From contig JAJYDE010000008.1 in the NCBI GenBank assembly GCA_021777755.1, forward strand, positions 78,984 to 119,288: a stretch of 40,305 bases of DNA, written 5' to 3'. The stretch is from Deltaproteobacteria bacterium. GTDB taxonomy: Bacteria > Desulfobacterota > Syntrophobacteria > Syntrophobacterales > Syntrophobacteraceae. Positions 1-4,288 of this stretch are shown in pieces. A program made the position numbers and the translations under genes. The stretch's first letter is position 1. The number at the start of each line of letters is the position of its first letter. Under the pieces are notes generated by a model. The model did no database searches. It was not told where the DNA came from and saw only the letters and a list, made by a program, of their open reading frames with translations.

Positions 1-201
1 AAAAACCACACTGGCAGGCACACGCTGCGAAGCCTCGCCCTCTCTTTTCGCCTGCCCCGGCATATCCCCGTTCCTCTTGTGGATTAAATCGTATGTCCCC
101 GATGTCCCGGATAGAATAACCCGGGTGAAGTTAGAATCTTTCCGATGGGTGGTCAAGAGGAAAAACCGGATAGAATCCGGCCTCATTTCCCGAGTTTTCC
201 A
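1..201. other. Upstream region with paired short palindromes
   Basis: No gene was found here. The 11-base string CCGGATAGAAT occurs twice (107-117 and 166-176). Each copy is closed by an inverted CCGG/CCGGG arm (106-125 and 166-180), giving two small palindromes about 60 bases apart, just upstream of the promoter at 202. They could be operator-like sites or simple hairpins. Nothing in the sequence decides between these. Confidence 0.35.
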
Positions 202-231
202 TTGACATCCCTTTGCTTTTTTCTCTAGGAT
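202..231 (+). promoter_or_regulatory. Sigma-70-like promoter of the cobalamin-riboswitch operon
   Basis: A perfect TTGACA -35 box lies at 202-207 and a TAGGAT -10 box at 226-231, with an 18-base spacer. The predicted start near 238 falls exactly at the beginning of the riboswitch, which supports the call. Confidence 0.6.
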
Positions 232-238
232 CACATCT

Positions 239-440
239 TGTTCAGGCGCTTCATCGGAAGCTTAATAGGGAACCCCGTTAAATTCGGGGACGGGCCCGCC
301 GCTGTAATCGGGGACGAAAGCCGCACCAGGTCACTGTCTGCTTTTGAGGATGGGAAGACGCGGCTGGCAGGTTGAACCGAGAGTCAGAAGACCTGCCTGA
401 ACATATCAGGGCAACGGTTGCGTGGACGGCTCCGTGCCTA
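239..440 (+). promoter_or_regulatory. Cobalamin (AdoCbl) riboswitch
   Basis: The conserved core of the cobalamin aptamer is clear: GCTTAATAGGGAA at 260-272, the GGGCCCGCCGCTGTAA block around 292-305, GGGGACGAAAGCC just after it, a GTCACTG segment, and the B12-box region GAGTCAGAAGACCTGCC at 381-397. The family binds adenosylcobalamin and lowers expression of cobalamin biosynthesis or uptake genes. Here it precedes a cobaltochelatase and a BtuF-like binding protein, which fits. The outer boundaries are approximate. Confidence 0.94.
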
Positions 441-470
441 ATGTTTTCATCTGCGGATAAAAAAGGGACA

Positions 471-505
471 TCCCGGATCGGTATCAATCGGTCCGGGATT
501 TTTTT
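471..505 (+). terminator. Rho-independent terminator, riboswitch expression platform
   Basis: A 10-bp stem (TCCCGGATCG pairing with CGGTCCGGGA, one G-U pair) closes an 8-base loop and is followed by seven Ts. It lies between the aptamer and the first gene, so it is the likely output of the riboswitch: ligand-bound RNA would terminate here. Confidence 0.8.
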
Positions 506-541
506 GTCCGGACCCTGGAACACGAGCTTAGGAGGAAAAAA

Positions 542-1537
542 ATGAACAGATCGACTATGAGGATACCGGGTATTCTCGCAATGCTGCCCGTCCTGGTCTT
601 TTTGTTTTCCAGGGCTGTTTTCGGGATGGGGATGGAAGGAATCGCGAACAAAAAGGCGATCGTCCTGGCAGGATTTGGCACCACCTATCCGTCGGCCCTG
701 GTGGCTTACACCGATCTTTTGCAAACGGTGCGGCAGGCTTTTCCCGGTACGACGGTGCGCCTTGCCTTCACCTCCAACATCATAAGAGAGATCTGGCACA
801 GGCGGCAGAATGATCCGCGCTGGCTCAAGGATAACAAGGAGAGCCCCCGCGACATCCTCTATGTCAAAGGTCCCCTGGCCGCCATCGCCGACCTTCAGGA
901 TGAAGGATACAGGACGATCGTCGTTCAGCCGTGCGACATATACGCCGGCGAGGAATTCCACGATCTTCAAAACTATGTCGGGGGGCTGGGTTCCATTACC
1001 ACCCTGAGGGCCCAATACAAGCCTTTTGTCAAACTGGTGCTCGGTCGGCCCGTATTGGGGCAACCCGGAATTGACTACGACTACCACAAGGACTTGGAGG
1101 CCGCGGCAAAAGTGCTTGCACCCGATGTGGCCCTTGCCGCCCGAAAGGGCGAAGCTCTCGTATACATGGGCCATGGCGATCACTTTTTAAGCTCGGGCAT
1201 CTACGCCGAATTCGAGCAGGTGATGCAAAAAACCTATCCCGATGTTCCGATTTTCATCGGTACGGTGGAGGGCTATCCTTCGCTTGCCGATACGGTCAAA
1301 AATGTCACCCGCCGGAAGATCGGCAAAATCATGCTGAAACCCTTGATGTTTGTCGCAGGCGACCATGCCAACAATGATATGGCCGGAAACGGCGACGATT
1401 CCTGGAAAAACAGCTTCAAGCGAGCCGGTGTGCGCACCGATTGCGTAATCCGCGGACTGGGCGAAAACATCGCCTGGGATGGGATTTATGTGCAACATAT
1501 AAGGGATGCGGCGAAAGCGGCGAACATTCAATTCTAG
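542..1537 (+). CDS. cbiK: Periplasmic sirohydrochlorin cobaltochelatase (CbiK type)
   Basis: It inserts Co2+ into sirohydrochlorin early in the anaerobic cobalamin pathway. The 331-residue protein has an N-terminal signal peptide (about residues 1-28), so it matches the periplasmic CbiK form known from Desulfovibrio rather than the cytoplasmic form. The metal-handling positions of the family are visible: His211 in MGHGDH, Glu243 in VEGYP and His275 in DHANND, with about 32-residue spacing. The ATG at 542 has an AGGAGG six bases upstream. It is the first gene behind the cobalamin riboswitch, and the binding-protein gene follows after a short gap. A periplasmic chelatase may alternatively serve heme or metal handling; the riboswitch favours cobalt. 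Confidence 0.9.
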   Translation: MNRSTMRIPGILAMLPVLVFLFSRAVFGMGMEGIANKKAIVLAGFGTTYPSALVAYTDLLQTVRQAFPGTTVRLAFTSNIIREIWHRRQNDPRWLKDNKESPRDILYVKGPLAAIADLQDEGYRTIVVQPCDIYAGEEFHDLQNYVGGLGSITTLRAQYKPFVKLVLGRPVLGQPGIDYDYHKDLEAAAKVLAPDVALAARKGEALVYMGHGDHFLSSGIYAEFEQVMQKTYPDVPIFIGTVEGYPSLADTVKNVTRRKIGKIMLKPLMFVAGDHANNDMAGNGDDSWKNSFKRAGVRTDCVIRGLGENIAWDGIYVQHIRDAAKAANIQF

Positions 1538-1564
1538 CCGTTGCCGTGCCGGAAAGAACAGAAG

Positions 1565-2986
1565 ATGCAAAAAGCCTGTAAAATAATACTGTTAACGATG
1601 GTCGCGATTTTGGTCTTCGCCGGGCGGAGCAGGGCGGCCACAAATGTGATCATCGATCAAACGGGCGCCCGGATCGTGGTCGAAAAGCCCTTCAAGAGGA
1701 TCATATCTCTTTATGCGGCCCATACCGAAAACCTTTTCTCCCTTGGCCTGGATAAGGAAATAATCGGTGTTTCCCCCGATGAGGCCTTTCCGCCCGAGAC
1801 ATTGCAAAAGCCCGTATTCAGCTGCCATGACGACGTGGAAAAATTTCTGGCCGCCAAACCCGACCTCGTGCTGGTGCGCCCGATGATCACGATGGGGTAT
1901 CCCAATTTTGTCGCGGCACTCAAAAATGCTGGAATCACGGTAGTCTCCCTCCAACCCAACACGATAGGCGAGGTTTATGCCTACTGGAGAAACCTTGGCA
2001 TCTTGACGGGCCGCGAGGCCCGGGCAGAAGAGATGGTCAAAAAATTCGGGGCCGGCTTGGACAAAATCAACGCCACTGTCGCTACCATTGCTCAATCAAA
2101 GAGGAAAAGGGTCTATTTCGAGTCCAATCACAGCAGATTCATGACCTTTGCTCCATCCTCCATCAGCATATTCGCCCTTAAGACCGCGGGCGGAATCGAC
2201 GTGGCCGAAGACGCCCTAAGCGTAAAAGGCTCAAACGTTGCCGACTACGGAAAAGAGCGCATTCTCTCTCATGCCGATGATATTGATGTCTACCTTGTGC
2301 AAAATGGGGCGATGAACCACGCCTCCGTCTCCGTTATAAAGGAGGAAGCCGGGTTTAGCATCATCAAGGCGGTCCGGCATGGACAAATCCATGTTGTTGA
2401 CGAAAAGATCGTTTCCCGGCCCACCCTGAGGTTGCTCGACGGTATCTATGAGATAGCAAGGTTTCTCTATCCGGATAAATTCAACGATGTCACGCCACTA
2501 AGGCACGCAGCAAAGCTATCGAGAGCGCAATTTGCCGAAATGTTTTGCAAAATGGCCAACATACCGCTAAAGACCCCCGACTACCGGCATGACATTCTGC
2601 ACAGAAGCACCGCTGAGCACAAGTATGGCGATTTCAAAGATGTCGACTACACGGGTGAAGCCTATAAGTTTATTGAGACCGTCGTCTACAGGGGTATTTT
2701 CCCGAAACTCCGGAAATCCGAATTTTTCCCCGATCGCCCCATAACGAGAAGGGACTTTGCCTATGCCCTTTTTGTCCATTTCGATCTGCCCGAGGTCAAG
2801 AAGGCCGTATCCTTGGAGGATGTGAAACCTACCGACCAGTTTTTCGAGCAGATAAGGACCGCTGTGGGGCTCGGACTCATCGAGGCGCCGGGGGGGCTTT
2901 TCAAGCCCGACGCGTCGGTTTCGGGCGAGGAGGCATTCCAGATCATCTCGCGGGCAAAAAATGCGGCCCATCAAAAGGGTGGTTGA
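1565..2986 (+). CDS. BtuF-like ABC substrate-binding protein with two SLH-like repeats
   Basis: The 473-residue protein starts with a signal peptide (MQKACKIILLTMVAILVFAG...). Residues about 25-290 form a helical-backbone metal/cobalamin-binding domain of the BtuF/FepB type (PF01497), recognisable from RIISLYAAHTENLFSLGL and KPDLVLV. Two SLH-like units follow near residues 355-405 (FKDVD...EFFPDRPITRRDFAYAL) and 415-465 (LEDVKP...LFKPDASVSGEEAFQII). SLH units normally anchor proteins to the cell wall or outer surface, so the fusion is unusual in a Gram-negative periplasmic binding protein. I chose ATG 1565 because it gives a clean signal peptide and has GGAAAG upstream; an in-frame TTG lies 24 bases earlier. 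It shares the cobalamin-riboswitch operon with cbiK. No permease or ATPase gene follows, so its partner must be encoded elsewhere. Cobalamin or cobalt as ligand is inferred from the riboswitch. Confidence 0.8.
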   Translation: MQKACKIILLTMVAILVFAGRSRAATNVIIDQTGARIVVEKPFKRIISLYAAHTENLFSLGLDKEIIGVSPDEAFPPETLQKPVFSCHDDVEKFLAAKPDLVLVRPMITMGYPNFVAALKNAGITVVSLQPNTIGEVYAYWRNLGILTGREARAEEMVKKFGAGLDKINATVATIAQSKRKRVYFESNHSRFMTFAPSSISIFALKTAGGIDVAEDALSVKGSNVADYGKERILSHADDIDVYLVQNGAMNHASVSVIKEEAGFSIIKAVRHGQIHVVDEKIVSRPTLRLLDGIYEIARFLYPDKFNDVTPLRHAAKLSRAQFAEMFCKMANIPLKTPDYRHDILHRSTAEHKYGDFKDVDYTGEAYKFIETVVYRGIFPKLRKSEFFPDRPITRRDFAYALFVHFDLPEVKKAVSLEDVKPTDQFFEQIRTAVGLGLIEAPGGLFKPDASVSGEEAFQIISRAKNAAHQKGG

Positions 2987-3547: not shown

Positions 3548-4288
3548 ATGAAGATAATTCCACTTTTTCTCCTGGCCTTGTGGCTGTGTTTCCTGCCGGT
3601 GCGAAGAGTCCTCGCGGCCGCACAGCCCGATTTGTCCTGGACGCTGCGCACGGTTTCCGAGGATGAACTGGTGCGCCTCGGGATGTCCAAGCGGGCACCG
3701 GGGCTCAATGATTGCCTCAATATCCTGAGCAGGCTGAACACCGAGGAGCCGTTCTACATCCTTAGAGAAATGCGCCGGGGAAAGAAACTCAAGGTCCCCG
3801 ATGATTTCAACGCCTACAGACACTGGACCCCGCTGCCCGTGCGCCTTCCTGAAAGGTTCGACTCGCCAAAGCTTATCATGGTGGTGAAGCACCTCGGCTT
3901 TATCGGCTGGTATGATCACGGGGCGCTTGTCGGCGACAGCCAGGCGTGCGTAGGCCGTGAGGGGCAAAATACCATCCCCGGGCTCTACCGGGTCGATGAA
4001 AAGGATTCGAAACACACCTCCAGTTCCTACCGCAACGATTACGGCGAGCAAGCCTGGATGCCCTATTCACTCCATGTGTACGGCGCGGTTTGGATTCACG
4101 CGGGCAACGTCTTCGGCCTGCACTGCTCCCACGGTTGTATAACCTTGCCCTATGGAAACGCGGAAAAACTCTACAATTGGGCCGACAAGGGAATCCCGGT
4201 CCTTGTGGCCGACGATTTGAAGGACGTTTGCGGCGGAGATCAAAGAAGCGGGCTGAAAATTTTCAAATCTGGCGCTTCGAAGCGGTGA
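3548..4288 (+). CDS. L,D-transpeptidase (YkuD family), secreted
   Basis: The 246-residue protein has a signal peptide (MKIIPLFLLALWLCFLPVRRVLA) and a YkuD catalytic core. The active-site motif is complete, with His in the GAVWIHAGN segment and S194-H195-G196-C197 in CSHGCITLP. The family makes 3-3 peptidoglycan cross-links or attaches proteins to diaminopimelate via the catalytic cysteine. The preceding region carries HLGFIGWYDHGALV, the usual entry into the YkuD fold. A GGAG lies upstream of ATG 3548. The next gene starts 61 bases downstream and carries a lysozyme-like domain, so the two may form a small wall-remodelling pair beside the flagellar genes. The specific substrate is not shown. 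Confidence 0.85.
   Translation: MKIIPLFLLALWLCFLPVRRVLAAAQPDLSWTLRTVSEDELVRLGMSKRAPGLNDCLNILSRLNTEEPFYILREMRRGKKLKVPDDFNAYRHWTPLPVRLPERFDSPKLIMVVKHLGFIGWYDHGALVGDSQACVGREGQNTIPGLYRVDEKDSKHTSSSYRNDYGEQAWMPYSLHVYGAVWIHAGNVFGLHCSHGCITLPYGNAEKLYNWADKGIPVLVADDLKDVCGGDQRSGLKIFKSGASKR

Follow-up and report, generated by a model that had tools for sequence, protein, structure and literature searches.

The window, a 40,305-nucleotide stretch of contig JAJYDE010000008.1 from a deltaproteobacterium of the Syntrophobacteraceae, carries near its left end a gene for an exported cobaltochelatase-like protein and, 27 bp behind it, a gene for a BtuF-type binding protein with a C-terminal SLH domain. A cobalamin riboswitch precedes the pair, and a permease gene diverges from it across the left edge. 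These features are as follows.

1..63, minus strand, ATG at 63-61: first 21 codons of a BtuC-type FecCD permease gene (355-aa translation), the rest of which lies left of the window
202..231, plus strand: candidate sigma-70 promoter, TTGACA-18-TAGGAT, from a consensus scan (10/12 matches); weak, such sites being no commoner than in shuffled sequence
227..414, plus strand: cobalamin riboswitch aptamer (RF00174, full length 1-189, E 1.2e-26, 109.2 bits against a gathering score of 31.5)
470..505, plus strand: intrinsic terminator downstream of the riboswitch, a putative transcriptional expression platform (13-pair stem with 7 GC pairs, then TTTTTT)
542..1537, plus strand: cbiK, exported sirohydrochlorin-cobaltochelatase-like protein of the CbiK(P) type, 331 aa (PF06180, E 2.5e-72)
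1565..2986, plus strand, ATG start: btuF-SLH, periplasmic binding protein with a C-terminal SLH domain, 473 aa (PF01497, PF00395)
1640..2470, plus strand: BtuF-type binding-protein domain, about residues 26-302 (PF01497 at 46-280, E 1.3e-16; docking-type Glu92 and Glu231)
2468..2983, plus strand: SLH domain with three lobes, residues 302-473 (PF00395; Sap Z 16.1, SpaA Z 14.9; TRAE-type Arg320 and Arg395; Gly454 in lobe 3)

A cobalamin-controlled cbiK-btuF locus

The full-length RF00174 match places the aptamer in the cobalamin riboswitch family and supports the riboswitch control that the initial annotation of this DNA had proposed. The strong terminator behind it suggests that the switch most likely acts on transcription. 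A second cobalamin riboswitch lies left of the window, together with cobI/cbiL and beyond the gene for a BtuD-type ATPase, and riboswitches are found in eight of the nine relatives scanned whose BtuF carries the same tail (hereafter, tailed relatives). A small protein of some 86 residues (MKxGxIxYV...PxRLxG) is encoded directly behind cobalamin riboswitches both in the window's genome and in three tailed relatives; in the relatives its gene separates the riboswitch from cbiK. Copies lie at L013:8691-8957 and L048:9649-10017 on the minus strand and at L049:2001-2261 and L050:4928-5188 on the plus strand; the protein has no Pfam match and no credible NCBIfam match.

CbiK scores 243.8 bits against PF06180 (cut-off 26.2), which places it in the CbiK / CbiK(P) family, and lies outside NF047852, a narrower NCBIfam equivalog (score 155, cut-off 400). 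Its N-terminus, read by eye, resembles a Sec signal without a lipobox. The initial annotation had described CbiK as exported and as the neighbour of a BtuF-type protein; the profile match, the Sec-like N-terminus and the position of btuF-SLH 27 bp downstream all agree with this. The best solved relative is 2xvx, at remote similarity (E 3.2e-33, 118.6 bits over about 290 residues). His211, Glu243 and His275 of CbiK align with His154, Glu184 and His216 of that structure, which we take to be the metal ligands of Desulfovibrio vulgaris CbiK(P), and they are almost invariant, being kept in 45-48 of 48 aligned relatives. His140 occupies the position of D. vulgaris His96, presumably a heme ligand in that protein; a heme histidine was rejected as a general feature of CbiK here because His140 occurs in just 10 of the 48 relatives. 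CbiK also matches the heme-binding protein FetB (9b86, E 9.8e-28), on whose function a literature search found no informative paper.

Relative to D. vulgaris CbiK(P) (2xvx, 2xvy, 2xvz), CbiK of the window shares the fold family, the export signal, the His-Glu-His ligands and a histidine at the heme-ligand position, but its sequence is remote, the heme histidine is not conserved among its close relatives, and its heme binding and chelatase activity are putative. The window's genome has a separate, riboswitch-linked small CbiX, which could serve as the cytoplasmic chelatase and so leave the exported CbiK with a periplasmic role, as in D. vulgaris. A chelatase outside the cytoplasm is already known in the form of D. 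vulgaris CbiK(P), of the 2xvx family (Lobo 2017).

The pair had also been read as a system without a permease in its operon. This holds only in the narrow sense that the permease gene is divergent, and it is partly an effect of the window edge, since that gene starts at window position 63. The permease gene (PF01032 match at G000:C29:78009-78956(-), 295.7 bits) is the sole strong FecCD permease gene of the window's genome. A gene for a BtuD-type ABC ATPase follows it, left of the window and divergent from cbiK-btuF. With BtuC and BtuD encoded next door, the locus holds a complete ABC importer of the BtuCDF type; in most relatives both genes lie in the same operon as the tailed btuF, which leaves a permease-free system without support. 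With BtuCD adjacent or co-operonic, the arrangement resembles a normal ABC import system to which a tail has been added. The tail as a marker of permease-less systems was likewise rejected because BtuC/BtuD adjoin most tailed loci; adjacent BtuCD is missing at two tailed pairs (L106, L107). In a close Syntrophobacteraceae relative, one contig (L129, 75-82% identity) has the order cobI > < BtuD < BtuC, and a second contig (L092) carries cbiK-btuF-SLH at its end. On the other side, about 560 bp past btuF-SLH, lies a gene for a YkuD-type L,D-transpeptidase (window 3548-4288, plus strand; PF03734, E 3.5e-12), which is probably unrelated.

In Desulfovibrio, cbiK-cbiL and btuCDF are under the control of a single B12 element (Rodionov et al. 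2004, PMC545781). The locus described here likewise brings together a cobalamin riboswitch, cbiK, btuC, btuD, btuF and cbiL/cobI, whereas its btuCD genes are divergent from cbiK-btuF, its cobI is under a riboswitch of its own and its BtuF carries an SLH domain. It is a locus of a known type for B12-controlled uptake in sulfate-reducer-type bacteria, with an exported metal-inserting enzyme and a B12-type transporter. What is new is the SLH tail on BtuF; the rest is the known Desulfovibrio-type cbiK-btuCDF-cbiL set.

A BtuF-type protein fused to an SLH domain

The N-terminal domain of btuF-SLH belongs to the Peripla_BP_2 group both by profile (the PF01497 match at E 1.3e-16) and by fold (Foldseek E down to 4e-13), with Foldseek matches to BtuF, ShuT and iron-binding SBPs. 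Among solved chains the best match is an uncharacterised iron-type SBP (4m7o), and the heme-type 2r7a scores about equal to BtuF; binders of iron, of B12 and of heme are all represented among the solved relatives. Against the BtuF equivalog NF002894 the protein reaches 35.5 bits (cut-off 234), and the name BtuF-type is used here because of neighbourhood and regulation, not because of that model. Judged from the riboswitch and the neighbours only, the cargo would be a corrinoid or metallo-tetrapyrrole, with cobalamin, another corrinoid, a cobalt tetrapyrrole and heme as candidates.

Glu92 and Glu231 are invariant in the nine homologues aligned. By motif, they match the BtuC-docking glutamates of E. 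coli BtuF. Since both are kept, the tail appears to be an addition to a working importer component. In comparison with BtuF of E. coli (1n2z) and V. cholerae (5ysc), the protein has the same Peripla_BP_2 fold and the two docking glutamates, but it is only about 20% identical, it has a C-terminal SLH domain and its B12 pocket is putative.

The tail matches PF00395 over two stretches (E 1.3e-9, 38.3 bits against a cut-off of 20.8), and all nine homologues match both PF01497 and PF00395. The SLH identity proposed in the initial annotation, for which it had named this profile as the check, is thereby upheld, whereas its count of two SLH-like repeats is not. A model of residues 302-473, built from nine relatives (mean pLDDT 82), superposes on the SLH domain of Bacillus anthracis Sap (6bt4, VIA superposition) with a Z score of 16.1 and an rmsd of 3.0 Å over 149 residues, and on that of SpaA with a Z of about 14.9, against 2.7 or less for non-SLH chains. 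Because it matches these SLH domains as wholes, the modelled tail has all three lobes of the fold, the first of them formed by a degenerate repeat.

Lobe 1 has diverged too far for Pfam to recognise, but keeps SRAQ. The TRAE-type arginine is present in lobe 1 of eight of the nine tails and in lobe 2 of all nine, and is replaced by glycine in lobe 3. Tryptophan is absent from eight of the nine tails, so the sugar-stacking tryptophan of SLH grooves is gone from these. In known SLH grooves, Trp and Gly contact the sugar and the TRAE arginine contacts pyruvate (PMC10628300); with tryptophan lost, and with no CsaB above its cut-off and no other SLH protein detected in the hosts (see below), the chemistry by which SLH domains are known to bind walls is only partly retained. 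Set beside the SLH domains of Sap (6bt4, 3pyw) and SpaA (6cwc, 7sv3), the tails share the whole three-lobed fold and the TRAE-type arginine in two lobes. They differ in the loss of tryptophan (8/9) and the Arg-to-Gly change in lobe 3, in their C-terminal position on a substrate-binding protein, and in that their hosts have no detected CsaB or other SLH proteins.

Distribution of the tail and the envelope of its hosts

In a sample of 395 genomes of the phylum, the whole 473-aa architecture occurs in eight other genomes, and tail-less orthologues ending near residue 308 occur in many more. When the tail alignment was used as query against a genome collection of 84,980 species, the scan returned one unrelated SLH protein and 20 further tailed loci, nearly all from deltaproteobacterial MAGs; eight of the 20 lie on contigs already found in the 395-genome sample. 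The fusion beside cbiK for which the initial annotation had suggested a search thus recurs, with cbiK adjoining the tailed btuF in 15 of the 20 loci and contig ends cutting off the other five. BtuC and/or BtuD genes also adjoin it in 15 of the 20. In every locus with a complete contig this SLH subtype is part of a BtuF protein, and it was seen on no other protein. The colinear order cbiK-btuC-btuD-btuF-cobI is found in most tailed and untailed relatives. One tailed locus filed under Spirochaetes (L103) is nearly identical to a locus of this phylum (L046) and probably comes from a mis-binned or mislabelled MAG contig.

Within the window's order the distribution is patchy, the tailed protein being found in 2 of 39 genomes, both of one genus. 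In a tree of the BtuF domain, a quick tree with many open forks, the tailed proteins cluster (4 changes, where shuffling gives a mean of 16.1), which suggests that the tail was probably gained once and then lost about three times. In one genome (G070) a further copy of the tailed btuF, apparently degraded, lies between btuD and cobI (L130:1180-1994(-)), and an intact tailed copy adjoins cbiK at another site. The architecture is real, conserved and unusual, and sits on a known type of locus. A literature search for an SLH-tailed B12 binding protein, or for SLH domains in Desulfobacterota, found nothing relevant in openly accessible papers, and such a protein may have been described elsewhere.

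SLH anchors are rare in this bacterial group. LptD is present in the window's genome and in the six tailed genomes tested, which indicates that the hosts are diderm. No other SLH protein was detected by a whole-genome scan of the window's genome or of eight tailed genomes, a scan of limited sensitivity that missed the known tail in two of those eight. CsaB (TIGR03609) has no match at E 0.001 in the window's genome, a draft at 95.8% completeness, and is above the cut-off in none of the eight tailed genomes, one of which (G086) has a cut-off fragment at 135 bits. In diderm hosts with no other detected SLH protein and no CsaB above the cut-off, binding to a pyruvylated wall polymer or S-layer is unsupported.

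SLH domains bind the cell wall, in diderms too, where they do so through OmpM, a protein reported absent from Gracilicutes (PMC10628300). An OmpM identity was rejected here, as no outer-membrane barrel follows the SLH domain, which is the last part of the protein. The two resemble each other in placing an SLH domain in a diderm periplasm, peptidoglycan binding being shown for OmpM and presumed here; they differ in that OmpM, the tether of diderm Terrabacteria (PMC10628300), is an outer-membrane porin, whereas the domain here sits on an ABC binding protein.

TonB-dependent receptor barrels (PF00593) were not found in the window's genome at E 0.001, and 26 of 28 relatives have some. A link between the tail and missing TonB receptors was rejected, as nearly all other tailed genomes have them. 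Outer-membrane porins are encoded between riboswitch and cbiK in tailed relatives, namely an LbtU siderophore-porin family member (L045:11900-13069(-)), an OprB family member (L049:2275-3708(+)) and a similar protein (L048:8203-9630(-)). They are possible TonB-free outer-membrane entry routes for the cargo.

A proposed wall tether for a nutrient-binding protein

We consider it reasonably likely that this is a B12-riboswitch-repressed locus for periplasmic uptake of a corrinoid or tetrapyrrole, of the Desulfovibrio cbiK-btuCDF-cbiL type, whose binding protein has acquired a wall-tethering SLH domain and still docks to BtuCD. At low cobalamin, the aptamer and terminator would permit transcription of cbiK and btuF-SLH, and both products would be exported to the periplasm. 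There, the ligand of BtuF-SLH may be a corrinoid or a metallo-tetrapyrrole that CbiK either handles or supplies with its metal. Through its diverged groove, the SLH domain would attach BtuF non-covalently to a polymer of the envelope, most likely peptidoglycan, and so keep captured cargo close to the wall until it is handed to BtuCD. A tether of this kind is plausible. A more specific proposal, which we regard as tentative, is that in this group of diderm Desulfobacterota a lone, diverged SLH domain, whose ligand is not a pyruvylated wall polymer, fixes a binder of corrinoids or cobalt tetrapyrroles on peptidoglycan beside a periplasmic cobaltochelatase, as a trap for cofactors.

The same domain could instead be a protein-interaction module that binds CbiK(P), BtuCD or itself and channels a tetrapyrrole from chelatase to transporter. 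It is the sole SLH protein detected in these genomes, CsaB is not found above its cut-off, the groove tryptophan is lost, and the subtype occurs only on BtuF, with cbiK adjoining every tailed locus whose contig reaches far enough. We nevertheless judge a role as interaction module unlikely: SLH domains are known wall binders, the whole fold and the TRAE arginines are conserved, and tail-less orthologues adjoin the same CbiK and BtuCD partners, which therefore do not need the tail. Attachment to the outer cell surface, with S-layer-like capture outside the outer membrane, would fit the SLH domains typical of Gram-positive surface layers, but it is highly improbable in genomes that carry LptD. 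A Sec signal takes a protein no further than the periplasm, BtuCD is an inner-membrane complex, BtuF retains its two docking glutamates, and the scan of the window's genome detected no SLH protein of an S-layer.

The cargo bears on another alternative, the scavenging of heme or an iron tetrapyrrole: heme would be bound or stripped by the CbiK-like protein, and the BtuF-like protein would supply the ABC importer with heme or iron; the Iht/FetB set of Porphyromonas gingivalis is the comparison here. The match of CbiK to FetB, the histidine at the His96 position and the similarity of the binding protein to heme SBPs are in its favour. Two cobalamin riboswitches flank the gene set, however, cobI/cbiL is a regular neighbour, and His140 is sparsely distributed among relatives that hold the metal ligands almost invariant, which makes heme scavenging quite doubtful.

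On the more specific, tentative proposal of a lone SLH domain with another ligand, the protein would be, to our knowledge, the first SLH-tethered ABC binding protein of Gracilicutes. In diderms, ABC binding proteins are usually regarded as freely diffusing periplasmic proteins. If the tether is real, an SLH domain would have found a new ligand, in genomes without another detected SLH protein or a recognised CsaB. The family would also offer a simple test case for the effect of a wall tether on nutrient uptake, with tailed and tail-less orthologues of the same transporter that can be swapped, and it is relevant to the unsettled function of CbiK(P) and other periplasmic cobaltochelatases.
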